From NCBI GenBank assembly GCA_033182465.1, contig CP137327.1, positions 558,001 through 622,000 of the forward strand: a stretch of DNA of 64,000 nt. The letters run 5' to 3'. Within the stretch, counting starts at the first letter, position 1, and every line of letters begins with the position of its first letter. This document shows, piece by piece, positions 4,051-62,712 of this stretch. Source of the DNA: Sanghuangporus weigelae (Eukaryota; Basidiomycota; Agaricomycetes; Hymenochaetales; Hymenochaetaceae). The notes below the pieces were generated by a model, which was not told where the DNA came from, made no database searches, and worked only from the letters and a program-made list of their open reading frames with translations. The translations under genes were made by a program, and so were the position numbers.

Positions 4051-4345
4051 TACTGTTACTGTCTCACCGATCAATCCTGCCGATATGCCACATCATCTCT
4101 CGGCTTCGTCTCGAGAAAGCATCATAGCACGCCCAGTATGTTTGACTCTGTATCGAAGGACTACCCTGTTGGCGACTGGGGCTTACGAAGAGATATTTAC
4201 GAAGACTCAGGTTCAATATCATTCTATGCCGAAGGGATGCATCATTACTGGAGTGAGCACATGTTCTACGTACGTTTAGCACATATATGCCCGCGGGGAC
4301 GTCTGTTGGCACCATTAACTTGACTATCCGCACAAAAACGTCTCA

Positions 4346-16856: not shown

Positions 16857-17505
16857 TGAGCGGTGATCAGAAGTCAAATTCACCCTCCAATCAAATGAAC
16901 AAGGTTCTCTCTTGTGACTATCATGTTGGAAGGGAACGAAATACACCCCAGCGCAACAGACAAGTTGGGCTGCAAGACCTGACACAAGACATTAGTCCAT
17001 TCAACAGAGTTCCTAGTAATAATGGACACGATGAAGCAAACATAGTCCAACCCACGGTATGCACTTCTGACTTGGCTAGTTCACTAGTGGTCGAAGTAAT
17101 TAGAAAAGAAGAAGTGAAGTGTTGAAACGCAAGAATCATTATCCGATTACTCCATTCTCACGGTCACGATATCACTTTCATGTGTGCTGAATTTTCAATC
17201 GACATTTTACTGCTCACGATCAACCTCGTCCCAAAAATCTGAAGGTTTATTTATCCAAATTGCTGGGCCTTTCCGTTATGAACTTATGAGTCATGAATAC
17301 GTTACAAAATCCTATTTGCATCTTTGATTCAAACTGTTATATGGTTTACCAGTTGCTCCCATGACTCCTTCAGTTCTTCTCGGTGCAGAAGTCACAGGGA
17401 ATGCTCAGAAATTATCCGGTTCAAATAAGAAACGTTGCTCACTGGGCAGGATACCCTCCTCGACATCTACCGCTTGTCCGCGAACCGTCTAGATTCTGTT
17501 GAGCC
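16857..17505. promoter_or_regulatory. Divergent intergenic region between MFS and dioxygenase copy 2
   Basis: This 649-bp space separates two divergent starts and presumably holds both promoters. A TATA-like CATATATAG (minus strand) lies inside the proposed first MFS exon at about 16815-16823, which is one reason that exon is doubtful. No coding sequence is supported. Confidence 0.4.
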
Positions 17506-25862: not shown

Positions 25863-28537
25863 CTATGCGAATACAGACGACTGCACCAATCTCGCATGTT
25901 TCTCGCTCCGCGGCTTCACAGTGCACTTGAAGGGCTCCGGGTTACTGTAGAATATCATCTCAGTCATCGTACTCCTCGGAAATGAACAGAAACACGACAG
26001 AAAATGAAATTAAGAACAAACGACATACCTCGAAGTACCCGAAGCGAATACCACAGGCGGCGGGGCATCCTGCTTGCCCGTCTCAGGGTCGACGTACGGC
26101 GAGATGTCGAACGCCGCGAGGAAGCACGCGTACGTGAGCCAGATGGTCACTTCGGCAAAGTGACGGCCGGGGCATAACCTGGGAGAGAAATGAAGAGGAA
26201 GGGATTTGGTCAGATTGGTATATGCAGGCGTGTGTGGTTTAAGCGATAAAACGAAGAGAAGGAGAGAAGGAAAGAAGGGAAGGTGGAGGGTGGAAACGTT
26301 GTGGGGTTGGAAGCAGAAATAGGCGAAGGGACATGAAAAAGAAAACATCACAAAGAACAAAAATAACAGCACATGTACATACCGTCTCCCAAAGCCGAAC
26401 ACCATCGTCGTCGGGTCGTCCTCTTTCAAGGTCATCGAACCAGCAGCCGAGCCATCTCCCTCCGAGGCGCTCAGATCCGATTCGTGGTCCCCATCGACAG
26501 ACGAGCTCTTCTTGCTCATAAACCTCTCAGGATCGAATCGCTCCGGGTCGGGGAAGTATTGCTCGTCACGCATCATCTGCCATATGTTGGGGAGGATCAT
26601 CGATCCGGAGGGGATCGTCCATCCGCGGTAGATGTCCTCTTGTGTCGACTCGTGTGGGATGCCTGCCAGCGAGAATATCCAATGCCAGATGTAAGAAACG
26701 TAAGAATCGAGCATGTGCACAAGTATGCAATGTCGTCGAAGGGGATCAGCGATCAAAGGTTAAAGAAGTAGACGTCAACGTCAACGACCCCGGCACGTCA
26801 AGTCACATGTAAACCCGCATGAGGGTAAGGCAATTCCAATACATCCAAAGAACAAACAAGAAGTGGATTAGCGTCGACCACGTCAGGAATCGCAGATCCT
26901 TCACTCACCAACAGGTACGGCCGGGTTGAAGCGGAAGATCTCCTTCACGATGCTCTCGACGTACGGCAACTTCGGGCGGTCCTCGTAGGACGGGAGCCGG
27001 TCCGAGCCGACGACGCGGTCGATCTCCTCTTGCGCGCGTCTCACGACTTCCGGGTGCCGAGCCATCATTAAGAAGAACGTCGCGATCGTCGCTTCACTCT
27101 GAGAAACAGAAAGAAGGGGGGAAAATCCTAGTTAGAGAACTGGGATTCCTTTGATGCAAACGCGTTGTCACTCACAGTTTCGACACCAGCTGTGAAATTA
27201 GAAATGAAGAATGAGAGAGAAGTCAGCGAAAATAGAACCGGCTTGTCGTAATCCTAGGCGCGAACGCACCGGAGTAGATCACAGCGCCGATACACCGGAT
27301 ATCCTCCTCGTGTTGCTTGTCTACAACTCCCCGGCTCTCATACTCGTCCAGCAGATGGTTTACGTAGCAATGCGGTGCCTGTCCATTTGCCTACACGACA
27401 CGTAGAACCCATTGGCGTTAGAAGGATGGAAGCAAGAAGCAATACGTACCCTTTTCTCCTTGAGCTCCCGAAGAGGCATTTTCATAACCTCAGCGACAAG
27501 CTGCGCCGTCGCAAGCGCATGGCGTTTCAGCCCAGATCCAGGTAGCCAAGTTGGTAGGTGGCGCACTATATGCGGAAATGATAGAAACAGCCCATCAGTT
27601 CCTTCCATATTGAACGAGCGATACTGGGCGATATTGAAAAGAATTTAAACAGGAAGATGGAATACATACAGATGGGGAAGAGATCAATTATGGTGCCACC
27701 GGGGCTCCCGGCGTCGGTAGTCATTTTTGTAGTCTTCTTCACGAGCGCGATATATTCATCTCCATCGACAGATTTCATCTCGTGCCCGAATGTTACCAGA
27801 AGGATCGTGCTTGCAATGAGTCTGTACCCAAGACTCACATTAGCAAATCGCGAATAAGAGAGTAACATTGGAATACAGAGGAACTCACGCATGGACTTGC
27901 TTCTGGATGTTATCCGGCTTGGTGAGTAAGCCTTGCAGGAATCGGTTAACCTGTCCCTGCTGGATAGGTCGGAAAGCCGCAACAGCCTTCGCATTGAAGT
28001 GCTGCTGCATCATTCGGCGATGCTTGCGGAAGCGTTCTCCGTATTTGAGGAAAGGAAGTGTGTTCGACCAACCCATCCTGAACACATTTATTAGCCCATT
28101 CTCTCCGAGAAAAGTAACCTTGGCGCATAGACTAACAGTTCACCCATAACCTCCATACGCGGTCTGCTTGAGTAGATGGCGCCTTTCTTCTCCATGAGAT
28201 CACGAGCGGCCTGCGCAGAGTTTACGATGATCATAGGACGTCCGAGGACGGATATATAGATGAGGTCGCCTTCATAGCAAGCATTAACATCAGCACCGAG
28301 CTCAATCCAGACATTATGCTAATCTCGCTCATGCTCACCGTATTTCTTCACCCAGGCGCCAAAAGTCTTGTAGGAGTACTCGAGGGGCATAACCCGGGCA
28401 TTTCCAATGATCGGGTCTGAGGGGGGACTCGGGGGGAGCTTGCGAGAAGAAGGAGCGAAGAGGATCTCCTTCGTGAATACGACCACCGCAAGGACGGCCA
28501 GGGAGAGAGTCACGAAATTGTTGTCGAGTGAAAGCAT
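25863..28537 (-). CDS. Cytochrome P450 monooxygenase, copy 2
   Basis: This is a haem-thiolate monooxygenase, ER-anchored by FVTLSLAVLAVVVFTKEIL near the N-terminus, with the hinge KLPPSPPSDPIIGNARVMPL. Later segments are RFRKHRRMMQQHFNAKAVAA (helix C), SPGGTIIDLFPI, a helix-I exon, ARHPEVVRRAQEEIDRVVG-type helix K with its ExxR, GWTIPSGSMILPNIWQMMRD, DPERFDPERF, and the haem loop FGFGRR/LCPGRHFAE split by an intron at 26180-26381. A last exon encodes NPEPFKCTVKPRSEKHARLV, ending SSVFA. About eleven exons give roughly 530 aa. An acidic/Ser insert (SSSVDGDHESDLSASEGDGS) precedes the haem loop and is absent from copy 1. All key residues are present. Confidence 0.86.
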
Positions 28538-31500
28538 TGTGGAAGAAGACGAAGACAAGATGAAGACGGAAATAGGAGCAAGAGAGAGAAGAACGATGAG
28601 AGTGAAGATAAGTACACAGAGACGGACGGACGGGGAGGACGGAGATAATATAGATATAGAGTAGGGAGGAGAGCTGGAGCTGTGATGGAATAATATATGC
28701 AAATTTAAAAAGGAAGTGATCGCTGGGTATTAATAGGTAAGCCATGAGCCAGCCATGAGCCAGCCAGCGAGCGGGGATGTGTGGTATTCCCATTTACAGC
28801 GCAGATGGATGGCGCCTGTTGTTCCGTACTTGGCAGTTAGCTTGTCTGCTCTGTGGGCTTCGATTCGCGCGAAATTAAGCTCGTGCACCAGAAGCAGTCA
28901 CATTACTAATTCCCTGTTTCCCGCACGCACTTCTTCTCTCTGTGCCGGCAGAAAGTATCTGCCCCTCGTCCTTCCCTGCTTGTATACTCCTTTCAATCCT
29001 CTCTCGGCCATGTCAAACACTTTCTTTGTCTCTCTCCAGTCCGCGCCTGTCGCCATGTAAATCATCTGCCATCTGTTTCGGCAGTGCAGGGTGCTATCAG
29101 CCTTTACGGAATCAGTCCCGTCATCCCTATGAACGAGATAAGCTCTTCGGGGTGGATACAGTGCGGGCGAACATATCCCACGAGCCATGAGCCAAGAGTT
29201 TGCCGTTACACAAACACACGGACACACACAAAGTCATCAAGACCGGCTGTGTATGGTAGAGCGCCGGATGCCTCGTGTCCCTGAAGAAGCAGCCCTCAGC
29301 AGCTTCTTGCTTCCTGAATCCTCTGATTTTTTTTTTCGTATCATGCTCACACTGTCCTGATTACCCTTCACGCTCTTCTGGTGGTGGTGTTACGTCTTCT
29401 GAGTGTTCTAGCTTCTATCCGAGCATGTCGGTGATAGGTCGACCGCTCTTCTAGGCTCGTCCGTGCGTGCGTCCCTTCTTTCAAATCGTGTGTGTTTGGT
29501 GTTTCGTCCTTCGCGTACTCGGCGGACAAGCAGCGAAGACAGGCGAGCGGGGAGAGAGCGCCTTGGCAACGACATGACGACGACCCTGCGGTGGCGACGA
29601 CGTGGGTGGTCGCGTAGTTGTTCGCTGTCGGTCGATTGTTGACTTGTGCAAGTGTCAGTGCAAAATCCCAAAGAAGCCCGGCCTTGAAGCGTCGTCGTTG
29701 TTGTATTTTTCCTCTTCCTCTTCACTTTCTCACGCGCGTGCTCATGTGGTAATCTGCTTCCGCCGCCTTCGCCTTTTCCGGCCTATCGCAGCCTATCGCT
29801 ACGCCTTCCCATGATTCCCATCATGATAGCTAATCCTCTCTCAGCAACAAGGCACGACGAAGGAGAGGGAGCAATTAACTTAACGTTCGTCTCGGCCCGT
29901 AATCTTAATCTTTTCACTCTCTCTGAAAACAATGTGCGAATTCGGATTCTTTCTCGTAAAACATCCTTTGATACAATGTATCCCTATAAAAAAGAATTGC
30001 TGTATTTACCTAGTTGCATTGACGAGAAGCGCTGACGGGCTTCAAGTTGAACCGTCTTCAGTCTCCTGGGATGAACTTGTCCGATTAGTACATACTCCCC
30101 GCTGTCGCCTGAATATTTAGCTTCCGCAAGTACTAGTCTCGTCTCTCTCCGTGCGCCCTCATCCTCAAAGCGACTCGGAACCACCCGTACAGTGCCTAGC
30201 AGGCTGCTTAGCTCGACCGCTCATGCATTTTACCTCATTGGATGGACATAATCCCCCGAAATTCCGACTTTCGACTCCCGGATTCCAAATTCCATAATCC
30301 CGTCGTCCTTACATTTGTCATGACTACATAGCACTGTCCTCTTGCTTGTCGTGTCGTACCATCCGACCTGCCATGCTCAGCCGAACATTACTCGCGCTAA
30401 CATCGGTATACGGAGGAGCCACGGACTTGGGATATTAAACGGTTTATATCCGCGGCATGGAGGGTATTTACGCTTGCGCTAGTACTGTCGATGGTCAACG
30501 TTCGCCGCCTGACGGAAGGTTAAAACATTAAGCAAGAACGGCCTCGGCTCGCTCAAGAGAATGAAGAATATCCTTCTCGAACCGACGCTTGACGCGCTGT
30601 ACGTGTATGAGACATCGAGATCGCTCCGAGAGACGTGTCGATCCCCGGAGCACTAGCGCTCTTCCCCGATTCCCCAGGTCCGGGGAAGCGAACCCGGCGG
30701 GCAAACACTGAAACACCTGCAATCACCCGTCCGTCTATCTATCCAGACAAACTATGTCTGACGTTTTGTGCTAGCTGTAGCGCAAAAAGGCATCTAAGTA
30801 TAGCGATAAAGACACGCATGTGGAGACAAGCGCAAGGACAACTCCGAGAGTCCGAGCGATAACGCGACGGCAAACAGCGGTGCGCGCGGGGACGCCGCCA
30901 CCGACGACGTCCGTCCGTCCGGTCATCTACATAGTCATCGCTCCGGCTACTTGCTTATTTATACTCACTTACTATGGACTGGGTTCTGTGGCGGCACCGT
31001 TACACATGGCATGGAACTCCGCGTTCGCATTCTTGTCTGTTCCCCGAGCTCTGCAACGTCGAGCTGGTGCGCCATACTGATTGCTCCGAGCCCCGGTGCT
31101 ATCCGAATGCTTAAGACCGTGCGCTGTTCAGCTACCTGTCCTTCCTTCCTCTTTATGACAGACGTCGGGACTATGTAGTTCTTTGGGGACGTTCATCCGT
31201 GTCCCGTACCTTCTTCTCTTTCTTCTCTGCCACCGCTGGTGGCTTCGGATCGACGGGACGTTACGTGTACTTCATATAGACGGATGACGTTCGTCTCTGA
31301 CAAGTTCATACCGGACGCCATGCCACATTGCTAGATCTAAAGCTACTAGCGTATACGGAGGTTCGGAACAAAATCCTTTCTCGATCTCGCTATAAATATT
31401 TTCAGCTGCTGTAGACTGACGGATCTCCCTGTTACACAGCGTCAGGGATTCCAGGACCAAAATATACGGATTGTCGGGTGCATCGGGTAAACTTCCCTCT

Positions 31501-38303: not shown

Positions 38304-39669
38304 TCAACAAAATCTGCGTGCCTTGAAATTCCACTTGGATGTTCCGTTAGAATATGTTGCACCCCAGCCAAGAACAGTATCATCCCAATTGCGCCACATC
38401 CATCCGATATTCTTCGGTTTGAAGAAGTCTTCGCAATGGCGGTCGAGTAGGTTCCAGTAGGCTTCTTCTGAGCTGACTGATGCGACCACGGCCGGACTGT
38501 TAGGTGCGTATTGTTCTTCGTTACTTGGCCAGCCTGTCTGTTTGAGAGAGACCTTGTTGTTAGTTGCGTAATACATTAAATCCATCCTGCCGTTTGAACT
38601 TGCCTGCGTCACTAATAAAGGTTTTCCTTGTGCAATACTCGCGTAGTAGTCCATATCATTCAAAAAGTCCGCCCAGGACGTATCGTTTCCACCACTCTGA
38701 GCATCAAACGCGAAGTACGGGAAGTTATTGATCATGAAAAAGTCAACCGCGTCGACCATAGCAGTTATGTTTCCGGATATCTGCCATCCGTATGCGAGCT
38801 CGGATGTCGAGACAGGTATGTCGGAGAGACCTGCGGCGGCAAAGTCGGCTTTCATTTGTCGGATGTAGCTCGCGAGGTTATCAGCCGAGCCGAAGTCGTT
38901 ATCAAACAGTGGCTAATTAAATTATTGGGTGAAATCGTTTTATACGCAGATTCTGGTATGATATACCTCGTCGCCTATGGGAGGATTTGTCAGTTTCGGG
39001 CTTTTAGTTCCGAATGATTCGGCATACCGAGAGCAACCGCCAGAACAGGTCCAGGATTTTTAATCACAGCCTAGCAATTCAAGACTGATTGTTACGGTCT
39101 GAATGCAATGTATAAATAAATATACACGAACCTGAGTAACAGCTTTTATTTTTGGAACAGCTGTGCCAGCAAGCGTCTGATTACCTATCAGAAGGGTCCA
39201 AGCGAGGGGTATAATGTTCAATCCAGCAAGACCAGCAGCTTGAATGACCTCTGAAAGAAAGACGCATTATAGACTGACATGCATGAAACTTGAATCACGA
39301 ATAATACGTACCTTCATAATAAGATACATCGGTCCCGTCACCACAGTATTCAAAGGTAATGACATTTCGTGCGCCCTTCAAACGCATACGACTAAAGTCT
39401 CTGAATAATTCGGATTTCGAAGGGCATTTCTAATAGACAATCATGAGTAAAAAAAATCAAGGTTCGCGGTGAGGCACTACTGAATACTTACGGTGATCGA
39501 ATATACAAATCCCTCGAAGCTGTACATGTTAGTGATTTTCTTCAATCGCGAAGATGATATCCGTCGTTTCTGCCATTTCTGACTGGTTTCATGAGCTGAA
39601 AGGGAAGGATACGCTACCACAAAACAGTCGAGAAGGCTGAGAAGAGCTAAACAGAGCACAAACAAGCGC
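38304..39669 (-). CDS. GH17-like secreted glucanase, dispersed paralogue
   Basis: Probably a secreted beta-1,3-glucan-active enzyme. The signal peptide is MRLFVLCLALLSLLDCFVVA. It is followed by SRLKKITNMYSFEGFVYSIT, VITFEYCGDGTDVSYYE, IIPLAWTLL, VLAVALGDEP, MKADFAAAGLSDIPVSTSEL, DAVDFFMINNFPYFAFDAQS, KPLLVTQTGWPSNEEQYAPN and NIGWMWRNWDDTVLGWG, ending KARRFC. The 8-nt exon GCGACGAG (38967-38974) encodes the Gly-Asp-Glu presumed acid/base. The TGWPS motif is typical of GH17, but the preceding residue is Gln instead of the nucleophile Glu. The intron at 38538-38603 has a GC donor. About 330 aa. Two sister genes lie at 56.2-60 kb. Confidence 0.82.
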
Positions 39670-40727
39670 ATTTTACTCGTTCCCAGACCACTACCCAACG
39701 ACTTGGCTAGCCAGAGAAACCGGAGACTTATGATCAAAAGCAACCCAGACGAACAGCTTATTATACGTGCCAGCGACGCGGTACATCACATAACGCTGCA
39801 TGCGTGCGTTCTTAGTCGCTGAAACTTCTTCAGCGATCATACCTCATACTGCGTCGGTCTCGTGATAACTATTAGAAGACGTATGTATAGCGATGCGTTC
39901 TGGAATTAGAAATCCAGGGCGACAAAATACGTTTGAGGAAATGCCAGCGAGGATAGGAGGGCGCCACGGCAAATTGAGAAGAGAGGAGGACGGTCTTCAG
40001 AATAACGGAGCTCGGTCAGAATATTGAAGGGCGCTTCTGGATTCCGTACTAGCATGTGCTCACAGAACGACCGACTCGTCGAAGTCCGTCGTAACGCCGC
40101 AGAACCAAAGACTAGACTGTTTCATCACCAAAATGCCATAACACTCATTAATATTGGTAAACCGCAGAAGTTTGGTCCGAGCAGTCTAGTGAAGATTTTT
40201 GCGCAATCATTTAAGTGAGAGTATCTGTCGGCCTAGTTCTTTGCGTTCCATCTGGGGTACGAAAGTAGGAAAAATCCACGTTCCTTGACGAAGCAATGAA
40301 GCAGTACTGCCAGCATGCAAAACTCCTAGCCCTCTAGCGATGTCTCTGGAGTGACGAAATCGTCATCCTCAGCTTATAAGGCGCGTATCATGAATACATC
40401 CGTATGAGCGACACGGTAGTGGACGGAAAGGCGTTAAAAAAATACGTCCAGCCTCAAGTTTACATGTATTTGGCGATTGATGGTCTCGTGATTAACCAGT
40501 TCGCGTTCCGCGCGCTAGTTCCGCTTCGCTTCCGAGTCGATTTCTACGTTCAACACGTCTTGGTCCCGACCACCACGGGCTTGTCAGCCCAGCCCGAAAT
40601 ATTCTCTCTTTTCTCAGCAATATCCAGCGCTCTTTCAAATTGAACTGCTCTTTCTCCAACGCTCTTTTACTAGATCTCTCAAAAGAATCGGGTGGAAACG
40701 TGAATAGAACTGCGTCGTGCCACTCCC
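39670..40727. other. Divergent intergenic region
   Basis: Separates the GH17-like start (-) from the zinc-finger gene start (+). An 80-codon frame at 40404-40643 has no known resemblance and probably falls in the 5' leader of the zinc-finger gene. A TATA-like element (minus strand CGTATAATAAG) occurs at about 39757-39767. Confidence 0.45.
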
Positions 40728-42467
40728 ATGTCTCCTGGGCCGAGCCGACGATTCGGAAGCCAGGCTAGGACAGTTAACTTCAATGCTCACAAGAAGGGGT
40801 CTACATTGAAACAGTCTTTGGAGCAGTCCTGCGTTAATTCTAGAATTCTGCTTGATCAGGAGCTAGGACACGACGGTCTTGATGATGCCACCCGTCCTCT
40901 CACTCCAATGGACTTGACTTTACCGCCTTTCAAGCTGGAGCAAGGCGAGAGCTCTCAACCAGGAAGCCATCACTCTGCAGGAAATCTTGCTACACTCGCA
41001 TGTCAAGCCATTGATGAAGACATTCTAGATGATGTCGAAGGCATGCCAACACGTGCTCAGTGGAAGTCGATTGTCGAAAGCTATCTCGCTTGCTTGCATC
41101 CCTCAAAGCGACACAAGTCTCTTATATCTCAGGAAGTTTACAAGATGATCTTTCGGACTCTCAAGGATCCTGATGCTACGCGACTCGGGACTCCTCAGTT
41201 CCGCTTTTGGGCCCGCAAGATGTTCCAGCTAGTCGAGGCTCCTAATAACATACTTGTGGTCACTAATGCCGGTCGGCCGGTTGCAATCAAGGAGCATATT
41301 TACGACATCCTTTGTATGTGTCACTCTGAATGTGGCCATGGTGGTCGCGACAAGACTTGCAAGGTTCTACGCGAGTATTATACTTGGGTCCCTAAAGAGC
41401 TCATATCCAACTTCGTCAAAGAGTGCCCAACATGTGCACCGCGGAAACTGGCGGCCTCGAGGTCAAAGGAGAAAAGAGTTGAGACGACTCCTGTTCCCTC
41501 AGAAGAAAGACTGTTGTGTGCTCCTCGCTTCTCTGTTGAACGGCTACAGGACTTTGGTCAGCTTCTGTCCCCTGTCTCGGATGGACCTCGCCAACTCAAG
41601 TTGCCCCCTCTTGATCTTGACGTATACCCATCTCCTGCGACATCTCAGGCCCTTACAGTCACTATGTCCAGTGAATGTGGCAGTCCTGGGAGCTATTTCA
41701 TACAAGCGAAGTTTCCTGCTAATAACTCTGTCGTCACTCTTCCTCCTCTAAGTGGCGGTCTAGAAGGCACCTACAATACGGCATCAGACACGAGCAAGCA
41801 GATGTCTCTCCCGCCTTTGATACAGTATCTCACTAGAAACTACGACTTCAAGGATGAGCTACAGTACCCGGCCGATGCGGACGCTGGCGAGGGATCTACC
41901 GAGCCGGAAATCCCTATTGATCCGACACTGTTTAGCACGGCCCCGACCGAGGCACCCGGAAATGCATTGCATCTGCAGCTTCACGCTCCGGCTCAACATA
42001 GTATGGCACGTCAACATGCGCAGCTAACTATTGATCCTGCTCTCACCCAGACAGAGAACGCAGAGGCAACCTCAATCGTCACATGGGAGTTCCCGAGTGT
42101 CGCTAGTGTCTATGGCGGAGACGGAGATAATAGTGCGCTGTACTCAGCCTCAACTGCATCGATTGGATTGCCAACGCCGTCTCAAAGCGGACAGATCTCT
42201 CCAGCGGGGTCCGGATATATCAGTTCGCTCGAGTATTATTCACCTATGGCCCAGTCTACGCAAGGATTTGATGGCATTCAGTATGCTTATGAGAATAAAG
42301 CACCAATGCATTCAGACTCAGAGAAAGATCCGAAGGTGAAAGTGGAAGATGGACTCGCGCGATTTGCCTCGCCTCCTTTGTTCTCTCCTCGTCCCGTTAA
42401 GATAGAGGACACTCCGGCACTACTAGAGATGGCAGCGGCAGAGTCGATGGAAGAGATCAACAACTAG
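40728..42467 (+). CDS. Intronless H2C2 (integrase-type) zinc-finger protein, 579 aa
   Basis: A single uninterrupted exon of 579 codons in an intron-rich region. Residues about 110-180 form a helical conserved block (MPTRAQWKSIVESYLACLHP, MFQLVEAPNNILVVTNAGRP). Residues 187-237 form an HHCC zinc finger of the type found in retroelement integrases and in Spt10-like histone-UAS-binding proteins: His199 and His204 (CHSECGHGGRDKTCKVLREY) with Cys233 and Cys236 (ECPTC). No integrase catalytic core follows. The remaining ~340 residues are Pro/Ser/Thr/Gln rich with acidic patches (DTSKQMSLPP, EKDPKVKVEDG), as in transcription activators. I infer a host DNA-binding regulator with a domesticated finger, probably nuclear. 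Target genes are unknown. Confidence 0.8.
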   Translation: MSPGPSRRFGSQARTVNFNAHKKGSTLKQSLEQSCVNSRILLDQELGHDGLDDATRPLTPMDLTLPPFKLEQGESSQPGSHHSAGNLATLACQAIDEDILDDVEGMPTRAQWKSIVESYLACLHPSKRHKSLISQEVYKMIFRTLKDPDATRLGTPQFRFWARKMFQLVEAPNNILVVTNAGRPVAIKEHIYDILCMCHSECGHGGRDKTCKVLREYYTWVPKELISNFVKECPTCAPRKLAASRSKEKRVETTPVPSEERLLCAPRFSVERLQDFGQLLSPVSDGPRQLKLPPLDLDVYPSPATSQALTVTMSSECGSPGSYFIQAKFPANNSVVTLPPLSGGLEGTYNTASDTSKQMSLPPLIQYLTRNYDFKDELQYPADADAGEGSTEPEIPIDPTLFSTAPTEAPGNALHLQLHAPAQHSMARQHAQLTIDPALTQTENAEATSIVTWEFPSVASVYGGDGDNSALYSASTASIGLPTPSQSGQISPAGSGYISSLEYYSPMAQSTQGFDGIQYAYENKAPMHSDSEKDPKVKVEDGLARFASPPLFSPRPVKIEDTPALLEMAAAESMEEINN

Positions 42468-50254: not shown

Positions 50255-52589
50255 TTACAGTCTCGTCTGCCGGATCACATTCTCCGACATCCAGAACTTA
50301 CACCGTTCAACTTCATCTGGCGGAGCGACGTCCATTATCGATGCACTCATCAGGCTTGAATTGGACGGTTGGCTGAGAACCATACGACTTCCGCTTGAGA
50401 ACGGTAGCCACTCCGGTGAAATTAATTCCCGCGAAGCCGATGGATTCCCAGTTGAGATGAAGGACGTCCAGAAGACAACTGACTCCTTGGAGAGCGCGTC
50501 TTCAGTCTAGAAGATTGGTCAGGCGGTTAATACCAGTAGCAGAGAAAAGGAATGGTCTTCTCATTACGGAGTTGAAAGGCGTGGATGTAAAGCCTGCATT
50601 AGGAGCTGAGCTAATGGGATGAAGGTGAGTCTGGTAGCGCCGATTGGCTGAGACGAGTGTCATACGTACGTTGTTCCTAGTGTATATCCGTTCGGCAAGT
50701 TCAGGGAAATCAATGAAAGAATAAGAATAATGCTCACCGTCGAAGAGATAAAATAGATCCGAAGTATGCATTACACCTTGAAACGGAAATTCGGCGAGTA
50801 AAACCGGATTTGGAGAATTGAATCTAAAGAATCACTTTTAATCTAGCAAGACATATCTATGGTGCATCATACCTGTAGGTGAATACATTCTTGGCTCCTT
50901 TCTCTCGAGACTTGTTTGCAAGGAGCCAATCACTGATCGCAAGATTCAGAGGAATATTCAACTAGCTGGGAAGTAAACGAAAGACATACAGGCATTCCAC
51001 CATCATGTCTATAGTCCCTGCTCGATCATATTGGGTCCCGTATGGACTACCAGGTGTACCCAGTGCTGGGTAAAGGGCGAGAGCTTGTTGAATTATCTCG
51101 CTGGTCTTCACAAATCATCAGCACATTCAGATGGTAAGAGGTACTTGAGTAGGTTTTAAACTATCCTACCAGATGCGGCCAGTCGCCAAACACATTCCTT
51201 AAAACATCTTCTTCGGTCACCAACTCGTCGGGAGGCGGTAGAAGAGTGCCCTTCTGTAGTACAATGTCCGGCCACAATATCAGCTGGAGTAGAGTTTCCA
51301 GACAATACGAGTGATACTGGCAGATTAGGTAGGATACCGCTAGATCCGTCGATGACTGGACCTGGAGGTATACCTGGACCAGCGTTGATGGTGGCGACGA
51401 TGACGCCTGTAATCGGTCCTCATCATCTGATCAATGTGAAACAGCTGACCAACGGAAGCTCGACGAAGACAAGGCATAGATTCTGGTCCAGAAGCGGGAC
51501 ACCCCACGACTTCTGTGACAGTTCCCGTAAAGCATATGTCAGAACGCAGGAATTAGAGAAGAGAAAGAAGAAATTCACTGAATGCTACTTCTGCTTCCTC
51601 GGCGGTAGGCGTAGAGTTATGGCCCATAGACTGTCCGATTGCACGCTTGAACGGAGTTGGCTCAGAGCCTGGTCATATGAAGAATCAGTACAGAGTTACA
51701 CAATAATCCCGCTAACCTCCGAAGGCGACCATCTGCACTATGACACTTCCACCTCCGGCGCTTTGTCCGTCTATCGTCACTTGATCTGGATCACCACCGA
51801 ATTTTGTTATGTGGCGCTGCACCCACTCAAGTGCAGCACGTTTGTGGTCAAGTAGACCCACGTTCAGATCACCATCTTGCTGCACCGCATCATCGGCAAG
51901 GAATCCAAGCAAGTTGAGGCGGAAGACTATGGTCACTCCGACAATCTTCGTCTTGGACTGATTGACCCAGTCATATAGAGGAAATCCCTGAGATGTCTAG
52001 AATGGATTGCAATAGATATGAGCTTCGGAATGGATAATATAATTAAGCAATGTGCTTTCCCCAGACTCAAACCCTCCTCCCTTGGGAATCCATTAGTTAA
52101 TTTGTGCAAGAAATCAAACGTAACATGGATATAAACAATCACGGGCAGTTTATCTCCCTCTTTCGCATCAGCCGGCTTCCACACGTTCGGAATCAAGCAA
52201 TCTTATAGTAAGTCAGGAGTATTGGAAGAGTCGAAGAGTACTGAGCACTAACCTTCAGACCCAATGCCTACTTGAGCTGGTTGTTGAATACATGGTGGGC
52301 CCCATTTCATGCATCGGTTATGGTAACAATTCCTTAATCCACAATCATTTCTTCCAGAGGCATTGGTGCTCGAAATCGCAGGTCACCAACTGGAGGTTTG
52401 GCCATAAGGAATACCACCGAAGAACGTCACTGGACCATTGACTTCGCCCGTTGGGGATGTCGAGTTTCCAGCGAAAGCGGCGCACCCAAGATTAACCACA
52501 GGGCCAAGACGTGATGAAAGTGCCGAGCCTTTGGCAGGAAATGCCGCTATACAGAAGAGATTAATCAAAAATATTGACGAGAGGTTCAT
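50255..52589 (-). pseudogene. Decayed carboxylesterase (type B) paralogue
   Basis: This is a near copy of the esterase gene immediately upstream on the same strand (53314-55670), still carrying the signal peptide, [28 protein letters not shown]-type motifs and the GxSxG elbow as GQSAGGGS. It is broken in exon 1: an extra base near 52402 shifts the frame after GGIPYG. Codons that are Gln and Arg in the intact copy read TAA (52334-52336) and TGA (52307-52309). An extra codon lies in the GLLDHKRAALEW stretch. Much of the later frame remains open, so the decay is fairly young. The homology extends about 450 bp upstream of the start and past the stop, so the whole unit was duplicated in tandem. 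A truncated product is conceivable but would lack the catalytic Ser. Confidence 0.75.
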
Positions 52590-53313: not shown

Positions 53314-55670
53314 TCACAGTCTCGTCTGCCGCGTCACATTCACTGACATCCAGAATTTACATCTCTCGATTTCATCTGGTGGTGCAACCTCCATCATCGA
53401 TGCACTAGTCGCCGCGCTCGTGTTGGATGGCTGATTGAGAACCATACGACTTCCGCTTGAAAATGGCAGCCATTCTGGCGAAATCTGTTCCCGTGAAATT
53501 GAAGGACTTCCTGCTGAAATAAATGATGTCCAGAAGGCGACTGACTCCTTCGAGAGAGCATCTTCGGTCTAGATGATTGGCAGTAAGATTTATTATTACT
53601 CGAGAGCAAATAATCTCTTCTTACGGAGTTGAAAGGAGTGAATGTAAAGCCTGCATTTGGAGCCGAGCTAGCAAAACGAAGGTAAGATGGGAAGCATTGA
53701 TTGTCGGAAGCAGACGCACGTTGTTCCTGATTTCATCGCAGTTAGCCATATTCAAAACATTGAAGAAAGAACTATATATGCCCACCATCGAAAAGATAGA
53801 AAAGGTCCGACGTATGCATTACTCCTGAAAATGGAAACTGGGAGAGTAAGACCGGATTTGGTGAATTGAATCTAACGGCAGTACATCAGATTCGTCGAGA
53901 TCAGTTCGTGAGGTGCCAGTACCTGTAGGTGAACACGTTCTTTGCGCCTTTCTCTTGAGATTTGCTCGCAAGGAGGAAATCCCTAAAAAGAAATTAAAAC
54001 TGATACTCGAAATTTCGAATGGCGAAATGTTAGAAATACAGGCATCCGAGCGACATCTCTGTGGCCATAGCACCCGCTCGTTCATACTGAGTTGCGTACG
54101 GACTACCGGGTGTACTTGGTGCCGGGTAGAGGGAAAGAGCTTGCTGAATTGTCTCGTTCGTCTTTGTGATTCATCAGTCCGTGTACATTATATGAAGTGT
54201 CTGAACGGTCAGCATAGAAGCCTTACCACGTGCGGAGAGTACCCAAACACATGCGTAATAACATCTTCATCGGTCATGAATTCGTCTGGAGGCGGTAGCA
54301 ATGTACGTCCATCAGCGGTACAATGTCCAGCCAGTATATCGATCGGAGTGAAATTCCCGGATGATATGAGTGATGTCGGCAAGTCGGGAAGAAACCCACC
54401 AGGCCCTTCAGCAACTGGAACCACGGATCCAGCTGGAACAGCATTGATGGCGGCAACGATGGCACCTGTAATCGAATTACTATCTCATCATCTGATAAAC
54501 GCGAAGGGGTTGACCAATAGAAGCTCTACGAAGGCAAGGCATGGATTCTGGTCCAGAAGTGGGACATCCTACGACTTCTGTGACATTTCCTGTAAAGGAT
54601 GTATTAGAATTAAATCGTTAATATAGAAAAGAAGCAGAGCTCACTAAATACTGCTTCTGCTTCCTCGGCGGTAGGCGTTGAATTGTGGCCTATTGACTGC
54701 CCGATTCCACGCTTGAACGGAGCTGGTTTAGAGCCTGACGATATAAGGAATCAGAAGAGAGAAGCACGGAATCGTACAGTGATTTCACTAACCTCCAAAA
54801 GCGACCATCTGCATTAGGACACTTGCAGCACCAGCACTTTCACCGTCTATTGTCACTTGGTCTGGATCGCCCCCAAACCTTGCGATGTGACGCTGTATCC
54901 ACTCGAGTGCAGCACGTTGATCAAGGAGACCTGCATTCAGTTCGCCGTCTTGTCGCACCGCGTCACCAGCAAGGAATCCAAGAAGGTCAAGGCGATAGGC
55001 CATGGTCACTCCAACAATCTTTGACTTCGACTGACTGACCCAGTCATATAGAGGAAATCCCTGAGGTGTCTGGATGGACCGAATCAACTCATGAGGATTC
55101 GAGGATTAACCATATACTTCACTTACCCCATAGTAAAATCCTCCTCCCTTCAGAAGCCCATTAGTTTACTGCGCTCAAGGAAGACATCAACGTACGTGGA
55201 TGTAAACAATCACGGGTAGTTTATCACCCTCTTTCGCGTCAGTTGGCTTCCACACATTCAGAGTCAAGCAATCTTCACTTCGAGTCAATAACCCTGGAAG
55301 AGTCGATGAATACTGGCCACTAACCTTCAGACCCAATGCCTACTTGAGCTGGTTGTTGAATACATGGTGAGCCCCAATTTCGTGCATCGGTTATGGTAAC
55401 ATTTCTTTGATCCACGGCCTTTTCGTCCAGAGGAACTGGTGCTCGAAACCTCAGGTCGCCAATCGGAGGTTTGGCATAAGGGATGCCTCCGAAGAACGTT
55501 ACTGGACCATTGGCTTCACCCGTCGGGGATGTCGAGTTTCCAGCGAAAGCGGCGTACCCAAGGTTAACCACAGGCCCAAGAGGAGACGAAAGCTGCGATA
55601 GTGCAGCACCTTCAGCAAGAGTCGCTATTATACCGAGAAAGCAAATCAAAGACATTGACGGGAGGTTCAT
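53314..55670 (-). CDS. Secreted type-B carboxylesterase/lipase, left-arm copy
   Basis: This is an alpha/beta-hydrolase of the carboxylesterase type-B family. The N-terminal signal region ([20 protein letters not shown]) is followed by [64 protein letters not shown] plus a small GGGF oxyanion exon, [40 protein letters not shown] and the nucleophile elbow [11 protein letters not shown] (Ser). [19 protein letters not shown] follows, then [14 protein letters not shown] with the catalytic His, and the end [12 protein letters not shown]. About ten exons give ~540 aa. No break was noted. It lies directly downstream of a GH17-like gene on the same strand. Its substrate may be an acyl ester of cell-wall or lipid material; the sequence does not decide this. 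Confidence 0.83.
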
Positions 55671-56216
55671 AAGGCGTCCAGAGTTTCATGGTTTTTTTTT
55701 CGTTAGTTGCGCTTTATAAGTTTTGTACCCATCATACGTCATGTCCCATCACACGCCGAATGGTTTTCAAAGTCTTCGGTGCTTACGACGGTCCGGCGGA
55801 GGCGCTCTAGATGAGTCAAAGAAGAACATGCTATCGCAGAAAACATTCCTGCTCATTACGCAATTCATATTCGGAAAAGTTTGTAAGCCCTTCCAAAACA
55901 TATTGGGCTTAAGAATGTGCGAGAATGAATTGCGCTTCACGTAGACTTTGTACTAAATTTATCTCGTTGTTTTTAAAGATGCATTTCGGCCGCGTGACAG
56001 ATCAGTACAATGTGATGCAAGAAGTGGGAAGAACGGAGGCTTCAAGTAAGTACTAGTCGCGGTAGGGAACAAAGTGACGATCGGATCATCAACCTGTATG
56101 TTATGGAATTGGAACATGATCGGCACGATCGTCATGATCGACAACAACTATCTACAAACGGCCTTCTATTAAAAGTTTCATGAAAAATCCCCGAAATAAA
56201 TTATGAGTTAGAACCT
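55671..56216. promoter_or_regulatory. Upstream region of the left-arm esterase
   Basis: A TATA box (minus strand TTATAAAG, about 55712-55719) lies ~45 bp upstream of the esterase start. The same element and spacing occur upstream of the decayed copy. The rest lies downstream of the GH17-like stop at 56217 and carries no gene. Confidence 0.5.
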
Positions 56217-57588
56217 TCAACAGGTCTGTCTAGCCATCAAGTTCTTCCACTTGGGATTCCCGCTGGAATCATATGCCCCCCAACCGTTCATATCGTCGTT
56301 GAAGCTACGCCACATCCAGCCGATACTCTTTGGCTTGAAGTAGTCCTCACAGTGACTGTCAAGTAATCCCCAATATGCATGTTCTGATTCAACAGTGACG
56401 TTAATACTCTTGCTATTGGGCGCGAAAAGTTCTTTGTTACTGGGCCATCCAGTCTATCGGCGAAAGATGCGAAGAGCATACAATCAACTTATCGATCATG
56501 GTCGAAAGCGAGAAGACCTTCACCTGTGTCACTAATAAAGGTCTTCCCTTTGCTATCTTTTCAAAGTAGTTGATCCCATCGACAAAATTGTCCCACGTGC
56601 TCTTACTGTCCCCGTTCTGCGCGTTCTGAGCGAAGTAAGGGAAGTTATTGATCATGAAAAAGTCAACTGCGTCGGCGACTGCAGTGATGTCTCCGGCAAC
56701 TTGCCAGCCATACGGCATGTCGGAGATTGATATAGGGATGTCAGACAATCCGGCGCTCTTGAAGTCAGACTTCATCTGAAGAATGTATTTAGCCAGATTG
56801 TCTGGTGAGCCTGCATCATTATCATATAGAGGCTGGGCATAACGTCAGCGATGGTTTTCAAAATTGCTAGGCGAAACATACCTCATCACCTACGGGTAAT
56901 TCAATAGTCAGTTGATCAAGGATTTATCGAGAACCGCGGAAGGAAACATACCAAGAGCGACTGCGATGACAAAGTTCGGCTTTGATATAATGGCCTAACA
57001 ATCAGGTTAGCTGGCGTCTGTCCGATTAATTTTGTCCAAAGCATATACCTGTGTCACAGCCTTCATAATTGGCACAGTAGTTCCCTCGAATGTTTGACCA
57101 CTATCCGCCAGGAGAGTCCAAACAAGAGGCATGATGTAAATCTGCGCTGTTTCTGCAGCACCCAACAAATCTATTAAGCAAATGAGACGTTCTGACGGAT
57201 GATCTTGCATGTAATCGATTCAATACCTTCATAGAAAGATACGTCTTTTCCGGAGTTACATATACCGAATGTGATTACGTTTCGAGCTCCGACTGATTTC
57301 ATGATCTTGAAGTCCTTAATTGCTTGTTCCTTTGAGGGGCAAGGCTATCATACGGAAAAATGGACTTGAAGTTCCGTATTAACAAAAAGAAGCATGTCGA
57401 CCACTTACATCGATATCATAAACGAAACCTTCGAAGGCATACATGCTCTTGAGGGCGTCAAGACGAGACGTGGCAGCGCGAGGTAGAATGTGTACCAGCG
57501 AATCGTCTTTATGGCCAATGGTCCTTACAGACATGGTTAGCAAGATAAAGGCGAAAAATGACGATGCAAGGAATGTCCGGTGCAACAT
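56217..57588 (-). CDS. GH17-like secreted glucanase, left-arm copy
   Basis: A secreted glycosidase-like protein of ~325 aa. The signal peptide region is MLHRTFLASSFFAFILLTMS, followed by SRLDALKSMYAFEGFVYDID, VITFGICNSGKDVSFYE, IMPLVWTLLADSGQTFEGTT and the 8-nt exon GTGATGAG at 56882-56889 giving Gly-Asp-Glu. Then come MKSDFKSAGLSDIPISISDM, DAVDFFMINNFPYFAQNAQN, GRPLLVTQ/TGWPSNKELFAP and SIGWMWRSFNDDMNGWGAYD, ending NLMARQTC. As in its sisters, Gln precedes TGWPS. The TGWPS intron is GT-AG here. It is head-to-head with the copy at 58634 and upstream of the esterase on its strand. Beta-1,3-glucan is the likely substrate by family, not shown by sequence. Confidence 0.82.
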
Positions 57589-58633
57589 ATTTACAAAACG
57601 GCATTAGTTCCTTCGTTCTCGATGAAACGACACGGGTCCTTTTATGCGCGCTAAGCATGCAATTCTAGGAATGATTGAATGACGTCGATTTTAAAATTTA
57701 AAATTCGAGTAACCAGGATAGCAAAACTGCGGCGTACGTCAAGATCGTATCCAAGAGCAGGATCCACGGAGTTTTGTACTACTACTATGGCTAGAAGTAG
57801 CACACAACTAGCTGGCTAATGTCTGCTTAGAGATGCCACTGAAATAGATCACATAGATATATCCCCAAGCAAGAATCCACCGGCATGAAATGTTATCCTG
57901 CTCCGGTACACCATTAGACGACGGATCAGAGTGCACAGCATGGTTGTGGCGAGATGTCAGAAATTGAAACCTTTGCGGGCCCATCTACCTCCGGACGTTG
58001 CAATACAAACGCGAGAAAGAAGGACATCAACATCAACTGAGACATGTGAGACAGATGGCTGCAAACAAACTTGATCACGCCTTCAGCAATTAGCAAAGCC
58101 CAAGATGGGACTATCGTCCTGACCAGCTCAAAGCCGATGGGGTTCGGCAAGGGAGAATTCGAACTCAGCTCGGGGTGTCCCGTATTTGTCATCCACTCTG
58201 AGACTCAAATGTATGACAATACTCGTTTTCTCAACAATAGGACACGTCAAGGTCTGAGACAGAAACTTGTCTCGAATAAAATCTGTCAAACAAACGGCAA
58301 TGGTCCTTTGTCTTCTGACTGACGTGCACACAATGGGAAGAGGGGCTCTCGATCAAAAACAATGCAACCCACGAAGTTCCGGTTCTGCTTGAACTGACTT
58401 CGACTATTCACGCCAGTTTTCTTAGCATCCGAGGACATGGTCTCCGAGCCGAGGTAAATCCATGCGGACACCCCAGTCTACCATGTGCTAACTGACATCC
58501 CCTAACTTTTCGAACGCATAGTGTCTTGTTTTCTGGACAAAAGTCTGTTCTCAACGCGTAGGTATAAAAAGATGATACTTGCCAGAAGGGTTGAGCAGTT
58601 TCGTCGGTCTACTTCAAGTCATCTTCACTCATT
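57589..58633. promoter_or_regulatory. Central divergent region of the mirrored GH17/esterase block
   Basis: This 1,045-bp region contains the axis of the inverted arrangement. Both GH17-like genes start at its edges. TATA-like elements occur near each: TATAAAAA at 58563-58570 (plus) and CATAAAAGG at about 57640 (minus). I do not see a long palindrome in the middle, so the two promoters have diverged. A ~60-codon frame or two are present without meaning. Confidence 0.5.
58563..58570 (+). promoter_or_regulatory. TATA box of the right-arm GH17-like gene
   Basis: TATAAAAA lies 71 bp upstream of the ATG at 58634, a strong TATA box of the kind seen at inducible fungal genes. Confidence 0.6.
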
Positions 58634-59962
58634 ATGAATACCTCTGCTCTCTTTCTTCTGGCATTTACTTTCTTTGGGCGGCTGGTACTCGCCTTGCCCG
58701 GGCCTGGCGATAGTCCACCAGCGAACGTGATGTCGCGAATGGACAAGATCAAGAATATGTACGCCTTCGAAGGCTTTGTTTACGCGCTTGATGTAAGTTT
58801 CGGTTACGGAGAATGGCATAATTTATATTGACGTTCGATGAATAGAATTGTCCCTCGTACGACAATATGGTATCTGACTTCACACGCATGCATTCGAAAG
58901 GCGCTAGAAACGTCATAACTTTTGATCTCTGCGGAGATGGTACGGACGCGACCTATTATGGAGGTATCTGGCTTATTTATTTTATTTTGTAACAAAAGAA
59001 GCTTATGCATTCTGCTTTTGTAGATGCCATCCGCGCAGCTGGTACTGCAGGAATTAATATGATTCCACTTGTATGGACATTACTCGACAATGGTCAATCA
59101 TTTGACGATCTCGGTGTACGGAGGATCAATGCGGTTACCCAGGTGAATTTCCTTCATTCAGACAAAGCCGATAGCCTGCTTACTTCTGTAAAGGCCGTTA
59201 TCAGTAATCCCAACCCAGTATTGGCCGTGGCAATGGGTACGTTCAACAACTGCGATTACAAGCATACTTTGACTCAAATTGACTTTATCCAGGTGACGAG
59301 GTAGGCATCTGTCGCAATCTGACTCCAGGCATCCTGGAAACTAAATTATACTTATATTTCTAGCCTTTATACGACTGGGACTTCGGCTCACCAGAGAATC
59401 TCGCGAATTATATCCGAAAGATGAAGAGCGACTTTGCAAACGCGGGTCATCCCGACATCCCAGTTTCCATTTCAGACATGGCGTACGGCTGGCAAAGTGC
59501 GGGAGATACTTCTAGCGTCGCTGATGCAGTTGACTTTTTCATGATCAACAACTTCCCATACTTCGCTTGGGATGCACAGGGTGGTGGAAGCACCACGTCT
59601 TGGAAGGACTTCATTGGTGACATCAGCTATTTTGACAGCATTGCGAACGGCAAGCCTCTCCTCGTCACGCAGGTCGGTGCTTCTGAAATTTACGAGCTAT
59701 TCTTTTGTTGATCATATTCCCGCTCAATAAGACTGGCTGGCCGAGCAACGAGGATGAATTCACGCCTAACAGCAAAACCATTGTTGTCAATCTAGAGGCA
59801 GAAAAAGGCTACTGGAACCTACTCGACAGTCATTGCGAGGACTTCTTTAAAGCTAAGAACATCGGCTGGATGTGGCGTAGCTGGGATGAGTCAGTAGCTG
59901 GTTGGGGTGTTACGTCCGATGGTAACGACAAGTGGGATTTCCATGCGCGTCAGGCGTGCTAA
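58634..59962 (+). CDS. GH17-like secreted glucanase, right-arm copy
   Basis: Seven exons (58634-58792, 58846-58963, 59024-59142, 59194-59236, 59293-59300, 59364-59672, 59732-59962) total 987 nt, 328 aa. The signal peptide MNTSALFLLAFTFFGRLVLA is followed by MDKIKNMYAFEGFVYALD, NVITFDLCGDGTDATYYG, INMIPLVWTLLDNGQSFDDL, VLAVAMGDEPLYDWDFGSPE, KSDFANAGHPDIPVSISDMA, VADAVDFFMINNFPYFAWDA, GKPLLVTQTGWPSNEDEF and NIGWMWRSWDESVAGWGV, ending ARQAC. Exon 5 is 8 nt (GTGACGAG) and encodes the putative acid/base Glu. Gln replaces the expected nucleophile Glu before TGWPS. The esterase at 60344 follows 381 bp downstream on the same strand. Confidence 0.87.
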
Positions 59963-60343
59963 TTGCCTTGTCCTTATCCTATCGAGTCGAGGTCTTGTTC
60001 GATCATTTCCTTTCGGGCTTCGTGTTGTATCTTGAACGAGTCGCTGGCTCGACAATTAAATACATTACCTTGATAATGCTGTCGATTCAGGATTGGATGG
60101 AATTCGTGACGCGACGCGACAAGTCACAGCTTCGTGAGAAGTGTCGACGTTTTCTCTGCCTTCTCTTCTTTTACGCGCCGTCTCCGCTGCTCCGGACCGG
60201 CAAAGAGAAGATGTAGCAGTTCTGAAGTTCTAAAACACTTTACGGATGACTCGACTTGAATGATCACGCGCGCATCCTCAGGACTTTAAAAGACTTGCTA
60301 ACAAATTAGAGATGAGAAACAAGGATATAGTTGAACGATTTCA
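59963..60343. other. Short spacer between right-arm GH17-like gene and esterase
   Basis: 381 bp with the terminator region of the GH17-like gene and the promoter of the esterase. A TTTAAAAG word at about 60285 may act as a weak TATA box. No gene. Confidence 0.5.
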
Positions 60344-62712
60344 ATGTCTCTCCGGATTTCTTTCTTGCTGTGTGTACTCAATCTCCTGATATTGTCGTCT
60401 CCGGGACTCTCGCTTCCCCAGCTTTCGTCTCCGCTAGGTCCTGTAGTTAATCTTGGTTACGCTGCGTTTGCTGGAAATTCAACTTCTCCGGCTGGCGAGG
60501 CCAACGGGCCAGTAACGTTCTTTGGAGGTATCCCTTATGCACAACCTCCGCTTGGGAACTTGCGTTTTCGCGCTCCAGCGCCCTTAGTTGAGACAGTTAC
60601 AGATAAAGGAAACGTTCCCATCACAGACGCGCGGGATTGGGGTCCATTTTGCATTCAGCAACCTGCTCAAGTTGGCATTGGATCGGAAGGTCTGAATCCG
60701 ACCATGCTATATGACCCGATGGCTAATGGACATTATAGATTGCCTCAAACTTAATGTCTGGAAGCCTACCGGTGCAAGGGCAGGCGATAAACTCCCAGTT
60801 ATTGTCTATATTCATGTATTTGTCTATTCGTTTTGCCAATATACTGGGGCTAATGACATTTTCAGGGAGGCGGATTTTTCACTGGAGTAAGTAGCCACTT
60901 TTATTGATCATTTTCTAGTATCTGAATGCTGTCTGTCATGACGCAGAACCCCCAGGGCTTCCCGTTGTATGACTGGGTCAACCAGTCAAATCTGAAGATC
61001 GTAGGCGTGTCCATAGCCTATCGTCTCAACTTACTTGGTTTCCTTGCTGGAACCTCAGTTCGGAGAGATGGCGATCTGAATGCGGGTCTGCTTGATCAAC
61101 GAGCTGCACTAGAGTGGATTCAACGTCACATTGCAAGTTTCGGTGGGGACCCGGACCAAGTAACGATAGACGGTGAAAGTGCTGGTGGAGCAAGCATTGC
61201 GATGCAAATTGTTGCATTCGGAGGTCTGCGTCGGCTCTACACTGAAGTTCAATTACTAAGTGATATTGCACTCAGGTTCCAAGCCTGTTCCGTTCAAGCG
61301 TGGAATAGCGCAATCTATTGGTTATGGTCCCACCCCTACAGCAGATCAGGCAGAGACTGTGCTCCGTAAGCTGTAAGCCCTCGTGCACTTCTTCAATTTA
61401 CTCTTTCTTCAGAAAATGTCACAGAAGTCGCTGGATGTCCCTCATCCGGCCCGCAGGCTATGGCTTGCCTTCGTGATGCTTCTCTTGGTCAGCTGCCCAG
61501 TCAAAGCATGTGCGTGTAAAATAGTGAACAACATCTATTTCAGGAGCAATCGTTGCCGCCATTAACAATATTCCTGCTGGAATGCTAGCGCCGGTCGTCG
61601 ATGGATCTGGCGGCATTCTTCCAGAATTGCCTAATACTCTCATCAGTGCTGGAAAGTTCTCGTCAGTTGACTTTATGGGTGGGCATTGTACGACTGAGGG
61701 GCGCACTTTCGTCGGTGGTCCTCCCCAGGACTTTGTCACAGACGTAGATGTTTCACGGCTTGTGTTTGAGCGCTGGGGAACGCATATAGTACGCTTGACA
61801 AACTGTTGTTGATTCAAGATTGTTCATGTCGACTACGCATGAAACAAGTCGGACGATTTGATCCAAAGGGCCCTTGCTCTTTATCCTGTTCCTGGAACGC
61901 CTGCCAGTCCATTTGCAACTCAGTACGATCGAGCATGGACTATGGCTCAAGAAATCATCTTTGGGTGCATGTATGATTACCTTCTTAATGCCAAGCTTCC
62001 ATGTCATTTGCATACCTTATCACTGTCAGGGATTGGTTCCTTGCGGACAGGCTTCAGCAGAAGGGAGTTAAAAATGTCTTCACATTCAGGTAAACGTTCC
62101 CGCCTTTTGCTGAAATCTTTGCTTTTGACCGGTGCCGTTACTCTTTAGATTCAACTCTCCAAATCCGGTTCTACTCGCAGAAACACCCTACCAGGGAGTA
62201 ATGCATACTTCCGATCTATTCTATCTCTTTGATGGTTCGCTCCGTCTCCCATATTTATAGTCGCCACTTATTCATATTAGATTATGTTGACAGGAACGAC
62301 GTGAGTTAGATTATCAATAAAATGCTTAACACAATGCTAACCTCTTGGTCTTGGACAGCTCGGCTCCTAATGGCGGATTCACATTCACCGCTTTCAACAG
62401 CGTAAGCCCCGGGTACCACTTGTCCTGTCGGAAAGAGGCTTACAATTCTCCGAACAGACAGAAGACGCTCTCTCAAGAGAGTCAATTGCATTCTGGACAT
62501 CGTTTGTCTCATCTGGTGATCCGTCGACTTCAAGAGAACTTATATCGCCGGAGTGGCAACGGTTCGCAAGCGGTGGACGTATGGTCCTCAGCCAGCCGGC
62601 AGGCACTGATTCTATGGCCAGCGCATCGTCAATGGAGGTCACGCCTCGAGACGAGATTGAGCGGTGCAGATTCTGGATGTCGCTAAATGCGACAGCACAG
62701 ACGGAAATATGA
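60344..62712 (+). CDS. Secreted type-B carboxylesterase/lipase, right-arm copy
   Basis: This is the paralogue of the left-arm esterase. A signal peptide (MSLRISFLLCVLNLLILSSP) is followed by [72 protein letters not shown] and a small exon giving GGGFFTG (oxyanion hole). Then come [40 protein letters not shown] and the nucleophile elbow [54 protein letters not shown] (catalytic His), DLFYLFDG and APNGGFTFTAFNS follow. The end is ERCRFWMSLNATAQTEI. About ten exons give ~540 aa. I noticed no disruption. The elbow GESAGG is canonical, whereas the left copy has GESAGA. Confidence 0.84.

Follow-up and report, generated by a model that had tools for sequence, protein, structure and literature searches.

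We asked what the GH17-like proteins encoded in a mirrored gene neighbourhood of Sanghuangporus weigelae are likely to do, and whether that neighbourhood arose in a single event. The window, by which we mean the whole stretch of DNA analysed, is 64,000 nucleotides (nt) long (contig CP137327.1 of assembly GCA_033182465.1, positions 558,001 to 622,000 of the forward strand), and coordinates are counted from its first letter. A sequence-only reading had proposed that two GH17-like/carboxylesterase gene pairs stand head to head, that they arose when a two-gene unit was duplicated once in inverted orientation, and that their enzymes act together, perhaps to open acylated glucan. In spliced gene models and a comparison of the window with itself there are six genes of the two families, three GH17-like (G1, G2 and G3) and three esterases (E1, E2 and E3), and five of them are intact. 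All three GH17-like proteins carry glutamine in the column of the catalytic nucleophile. We consider it rather probable that this is a neighbourhood of multiple duplications, in which GH17-derived glutamine proteins bind glucan and do not cut it, beside ordinary type-B carboxylesterases. The GH17-like genes and the parts of them that matter for the active site are as follows.

38304..39671, minus strand: G1, the third GH17-like gene, 7 exons, 336 amino acids (aa), Gln259 in the nucleophile column, Glu156 as acid/base (homology, spliced model)
56217..57588, minus strand: G2, GH17-like gene, 7 exons, 338 aa, Gln260 in the nucleophile column, Glu157 as acid/base (spliced model)
58634..59962, plus strand: G3, GH17-like gene, 7 exons, 328 aa, Gln252 in the nucleophile column, Glu149 as acid/base (spliced model, PDB alignment)
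56882..56889, minus strand: 8-nt microexon of G2 with the acid/base Glu (spliced model)
59664..59672, plus strand: the three codons (V-T-Q) that end exon 6 of G3, the CAG joined in phase 0 to the T-G-W-P-S of exon 7

In each of the three proteins the nucleophile column is Gln, within the motif VTQTGWPS, and no nucleophile Glu precedes [ST]GWP or a similar motif. This Gln is aligned with the Glu of the structure 4wtp (RmBgt17A) and with the Glu of 8akp (G7048); the 4wtr chain has Ala at the same column. The available part of PMC11005184 gives Glu189 as the nucleophile of RmBgt17A, and that of PMC9745967 gives E111 and E222 as the catalytic Glu pair of G7048; both papers name 4wtr among their ligand complexes. 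The acid/base Glu is retained in the GDE motif of all three proteins, where it is aligned with the corresponding Glu of 4wtp and 8akp, and every copy encodes it on an 8-nt microexon (the equivalents of the G2 microexon lie at 38967-38974 in G1 and 59293-59300 in G3). The Gln codon is CAG and ends exon 6 in each of G1, G2 and G3. Could alternative splicing place Glu before TGWPS? By eye we found no such splicing, in a search that was not exhaustive, and upstream read-through of exon 7, also followed by eye, yields Lys, a stop or Gln before the Thr in the three genes.

The membership of these proteins in the GH17 family is seen in their matches to solved structures. Over its residues 42-300, G3 matches 4wtp with E=1.9e-12; its match to 8akp has E=4.3e-8, and a three-sequence profile of G1, G2 and G3 reaches 8.9e-12 against 4wtp and 4.8e-11 against 8akp. 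Judged from these alignments, G1-G3 are descendants of GH17 β-1,3-glucanases/glucanosyltransferases. Their hydrophobic N-termini, assessed by eye, suggest that they are probably secreted. The three genes have seven exons each with intron positions in common, and their 18 introns are GT-AG throughout, except for one GC-AG intron. This exception is intron 6 of G1, with the GC donor at 38602-38603 on the minus strand in the model. Introns are many and short (47-70 nt across the final GH17-like and esterase models), which is usual in basidiomycetes. Relatives of the GH17-like alignment were confirmed in none of 106 candidate stretches from prokaryote genomes and in none of 180 from viral contigs. 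One of the three proteins gave an NCBIfam match with E=0.037, which we took as chance.

As a control for the nucleophile column we used bacterial GH17 genes. When genomes were scanned with an alignment headed by the 4wtp fragment (Rhizomucor), one locus, L002, came out of 127 candidates; of 200 genomes of its phylum, 14 had a match, in 27 places, all of which were made loci. With L002 included, the control set has 28 loci that stand for 26 distinct genes (L002 equals L003 and L004 equals L029; near-identical genes of related genomes were otherwise left unmerged). In this one phylum Glu stands before TGWPS or FGWPS in 26 of the 26 distinct genes.

With Gln in place of the family's attacking glutamate, the GH17-like proteins therefore probably bind glucan rather than cleave it. 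They would hold β-1,3-glucan in the ancestral cleft without its nucleophile, and not pass through the double-displacement cleavage of GH17; the acid/base Glu and some substrate-contact aromatics are retained. The outcome of such binding could be wall protection, masking, scaffolding or oligosaccharide sensing, and the esterases would handle small esters or wall acyl groups independently. The proposal of enzymes jointly opening acylated glucan is weakened, since it requires an active glucanase and the nucleophile Glu is absent from all three GH17-like proteins. Adjacency of the genes is the sole basis on which a functional pairing of the two families might be suggested.

Is the glutamine under constraint? 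The invariant block around it, PLLVTQTGWPSN (12 residues), is the second longest in the three paralogues, the longest being DAVDFFMINNFPYFA (15 residues). Shuffling the invariant columns 20000 times placed a run of at least 12 at the Gln twice. Since the Gln block is invariant in G1-G3, the Gln is either older than the copies or fixed in all of them. The ratio of non-synonymous to synonymous differences per site (pN/pS) is low, with the bootstrap ranges of the three GH17-like pairs lying inside 0.27-0.44. We argue for function because three copies at a saturated synonymous distance keep open frames and active-site blocks. Several points weigh against this picture of constrained, glucan-binding GH17 descendants. 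The shuffle test disregards the joint conservation of neighbouring columns. The dead E1 compared with E2 has an equally low pN/pS, 0.21-0.31, and therefore the ratio marks past constraint and not present life. Neither Pfam (no PF00332 at E<=1) nor NCBIfam gave a GH17 match, in searches whose HMMER filters lose most weak matches; the divergence of G1-G3 is therefore great, and their active site may have been rearranged. The bacterial control is narrow because it covers a single phylum, and a PF00332 search meant as a broader control is of no use as one. It started from one of two Rhizobium plasmid records that match the first exon of E3 in tblastn (47% identity), and it found no match in that record nor in any of the 14 control genomes.

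The closest known systems show what has been kept and what has changed. RmBgt17A, the GH17 β-1,3-glucanosyltransferase of Rhizomucor miehei (PDB 4wtp, 4wtr and 4wts), is the best sequence match of G3. Trp65, the acid/base Glu99, Tyr102 (Phe in G1) and Tyr136 of this enzyme are also found in G1-G3, whereas Glu189 is changed to Gln, Arg103 to Asp, Trp157 to Phe and Glu158 to Ala; Tyr135 is Ala in G1 and G3 and Pro in G2. These residue numbers were mapped onto the alignments by hand count, and the roles of the residues are taken from the available parts of PMC9745967 and PMC11005184. In G7048, the GH17 1,3-β-transglucanase of Penicillium sumatraense (PDB 8akp), the acid/base Glu is aligned with that of G1-G3 and the catalytic E222 corresponds to the Gln of the window's proteins. 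A parallel of another kind comes from herbivorous beetles, where, in the available part of PMC6549527, a duplicated plant-wall-degrading family retains inactive members. The beetle pseudoenzymes and the probably inactive GH17-like proteins are alike in belonging to duplicated families, but the beetle family is a different one from another kind of organism, and no GH17 copy with the nucleophile was found in the window. The beetle family is reportedly GH28. In the open-access literature searched there was no report of a GH17 pseudoenzyme class, an absence that is no proof of absence from print, and no occurrence of the motif TQTGWPS; no title among the matches listed concerned a nucleophile-changed GH17 variant.

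The esterases and the region that separates the two arms were placed as follows.

50255..52589, minus strand: E1, third esterase, a pseudogene in tandem behind E2 (self-blastn, exon-by-exon comparison with E2)
53314..55670, minus strand: E2, type-B carboxylesterase, 13 exons, 565 aa, Ser226/Asp347/His455 (spliced model, PF00135, 1ukc)
60344..62712, plus strand: E3, type-B carboxylesterase, 13 exons, 567 aa, Ser226/Glu347/His457 (spliced model, PF00135)
57589..58633, no strand: divergent region of 1045 nt that separates the start codons of G2 and G3, containing a palindrome at 57685-57708

To judge by their domains and motifs, E2 and E3 seem to be type-B carboxylesterases of the ordinary, active kind. 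They match PF00135 with 298.4 bits (E=1.5e-88) and 286.8 bits (E=5.1e-85), respectively, where the curated cut-off is 27 bits, and their intron positions are in common. A Ser-acid-His triad and a GGG oxyanion hole are type-B carboxylesterase motifs, and both proteins contain HGGGF at the oxyanion hole together with the Ser-acid-His motif residues. The best match of E2 in a PDB search is the fungal type-B carboxylesterase EstA (1ukc, which we take to be from Aspergillus niger; E=2.1e-65, residues 26-560 of 565), whose Ser, acid and His motifs are aligned with those of E2; the acid column is Asp in E2 but Glu in EstA and E3. A 7-nt microexon lies at 62294-62300 in E3 and at 53720-53726 in E2, and it is also present in E1. 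E1 itself is 75% identical to E2 across 2356 aligned nt (self-blastn, same strand), and it is not an intact gene but a pseudogene: its frame is shifted in places and broken by an in-frame stop, and splice sites are damaged.

Along the window the order is G1 (minus), then at a distance E1 (minus, dead), E2 (minus) and G2 (minus), followed by G3 (plus) and E3 (plus), as read from the spliced models and the self-comparison. The four genes of the sequence-only reading thus stand with the strands and order that it gave, E2 and G2 on the minus strand and G3 and E3 on the plus strand, with open frames in spliced models. The esterase had been placed 0.4-0.5 kb downstream of the GH17-like gene, and the stop-to-start spacing is 546 nt for G2/E2 and 381 nt for G3/E3. 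Homology of the arms is above chance as well: inverted matches span 252 nt (79%, E=1e-42), 274 nt (76%, E=2e-31) and 187 nt (77%, E=2e-21). The whole-window self-comparison adds two genes, the esterase E1 and the GH17-like G1, the latter 16.5 kb away from G2. As these are additional to the four-gene mirror, the gene sets of the two arms are unequal. A tblastn search of the five intact proteins on the window (E<=0.5) gave 63 pieces, none of them outside the six genes, and hence no further copy. The start codon of G2 has an AT-rich palindrome of 24 nt ∼100 nt upstream (57685-57708), within the common divergent region. Open frames in the interval between G1 and E1 encode an integrase zinc-binding domain, a protein kinase domain and the C-terminus of an adenylosuccinate lyase; the integrase-type frame (40704-42464, plus strand, 587 codons), possibly a retroelement remnant, lies between G1 and the other five genes.

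How did this arrangement arise? One explanation is that a GH17-esterase pair was duplicated once, in inverted orientation, about an axis near 58.1 kb, with both enzymes active and working jointly on acylated glucan. In its favour, the layout is head to head and the gene order of one arm recurs in the other, both families show inverted homology, and the E2/E3 split predates that of E1 and E2, as expected if the arms came first. The duplication and the mirrored order are clear; that it was a single event is not proven. G3 is no nearer to G2 than to G1: at the amino-acid level the identities are 59.8% (G1-G3), 58.9% (G2-G3) and 54.5% (G1-G2), and the residues common to two copies against the third number 46, 43 and 31, respectively. 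A tree rooted on the 4wtp fragment leaves the matter undecided, with approximately unbiased (AU) test values of 0.62 for G1+G2, 0.49 for G1+G3 and 0.28 for the arm pairing G2+G3, which is the least favoured, though none of the three is rejected. The in-register inverted matches coincide with exons, give or take a few bases, and no arm-to-arm homology beyond exons was found by self-comparison, in the inverted matches or in the G2-G3 intergenic comparison; in the last of these the 1045-nt region, compared in its two directions, gave merely 9-nt words and overlapping self-palindromes, and no promoter homology. The GH17-like duplications cannot be dated by synonymous divergence (dS), because the synonymous sites are saturated (0.78-0.81 differences per site). 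Among the esterases dS is 0.66 for E1-E2, the youngest split, and 2.1 for E2-E3, which is near saturation and leaves E3 as the outlier. Slightly unequal synonymous divergence speaks weakly against a common duplication date for the two families, which the sequence-only reading named as support: the synonymous difference of E2-E3 is smaller than that of G2-G3, with ∼1% of bootstrap pairs contrary in independent bootstraps. Four-fold sites give no clear separation (133/229 differ for E2-E3 and 52/78 for G2-G3). With the nucleophile missing from all three GH17-like copies in addition, the combined claim of one event and active enzymes appears unlikely to us, and its layout half could be true even if its enzymatic half is not. 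A paired inverted duplication stays possible, but stepwise duplication fits equally and also accounts for G1 and E1. There would then have been several duplications, of which tandem E1/E2 is the youngest measurable, one or more would have set G2/E2 and G3/E3 head to head, and another would have left G1 16.5 kb off.

The GH17-like proteins might still be enzymes of another kind, for example substrate-assisted, with an N-acetylated sugar whose acetamido group the Gln orients, or inverting or phosphorolytic, by way of the acid/base Glu. Substrate-assisted catalysis with the help of amide or acid side chains occurs in families such as GH85 and GH20, and neither the GDEPL motif nor the Gln block varies among the three copies. 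However, no sequence feature indicates an N-acetyl substrate and the nearest solved relatives are β-1,3-glucan enzymes, and we regard such a route as improbable. Could the genes be functionless, decaying leftovers? The nucleophile is lost and the neighbouring E1 is a pseudogene whose low pN/pS leaves recent death unmarked in the ratio. Against this, three intact seven-exon frames with proper introns persist at saturated synonymous divergence, which means that all three copies would need to have died very recently, and the longest invariant blocks fall on substrate-site motifs; decay therefore seems to us very improbable. The glucan-binding reading may also extend beyond this window. We suggest tentatively, at somewhat less than an even chance, that G1-G3 belong to a conserved fungal GH17-derived clade in which Glu was replaced by Gln before the copies diverged, and that its members act as β-1,3-glucan lectins or wall shields, or by a substrate-assisted route.

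Elsewhere in the window, self-comparison shows a tandem duplicate of a short-chain dehydrogenase-type gene (4319-5468 and 6028-7180, plus strand; PF13561/PF00106 on 4939-5220) and duplicate TauD-type dioxygenase genes (12900-14363 and 17503-18934, plus strand; PF02668 on 13520-13738) that flank sugar-transporter frames on the opposite strand (14979-15956). A dispersed homologous pair of cytochrome P450 type lies at 7858-10244 and 25866-28729 (minus strand; self-comparison, PF00067 on 26013-26759). Positions 22001-24000 have a strong local AT skew of -0.244, the remaining 2-kb steps ranging from -0.141 to 0.154. A tRNA search of the window found none.

The mirror layout by itself is thus no proof of a paired inverted duplication, and the proposed partnership of GH17-like proteins and esterases depends on a residue that is absent here. 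Inventories of carbohydrate-active enzymes (CAZymes) commonly list the GH17 proteins of fungi as glucanases. A constrained, duplicated GH17 sub-family without the nucleophile would be miscounted there as degradative, and it would provide a natural glucan-binding scaffold.

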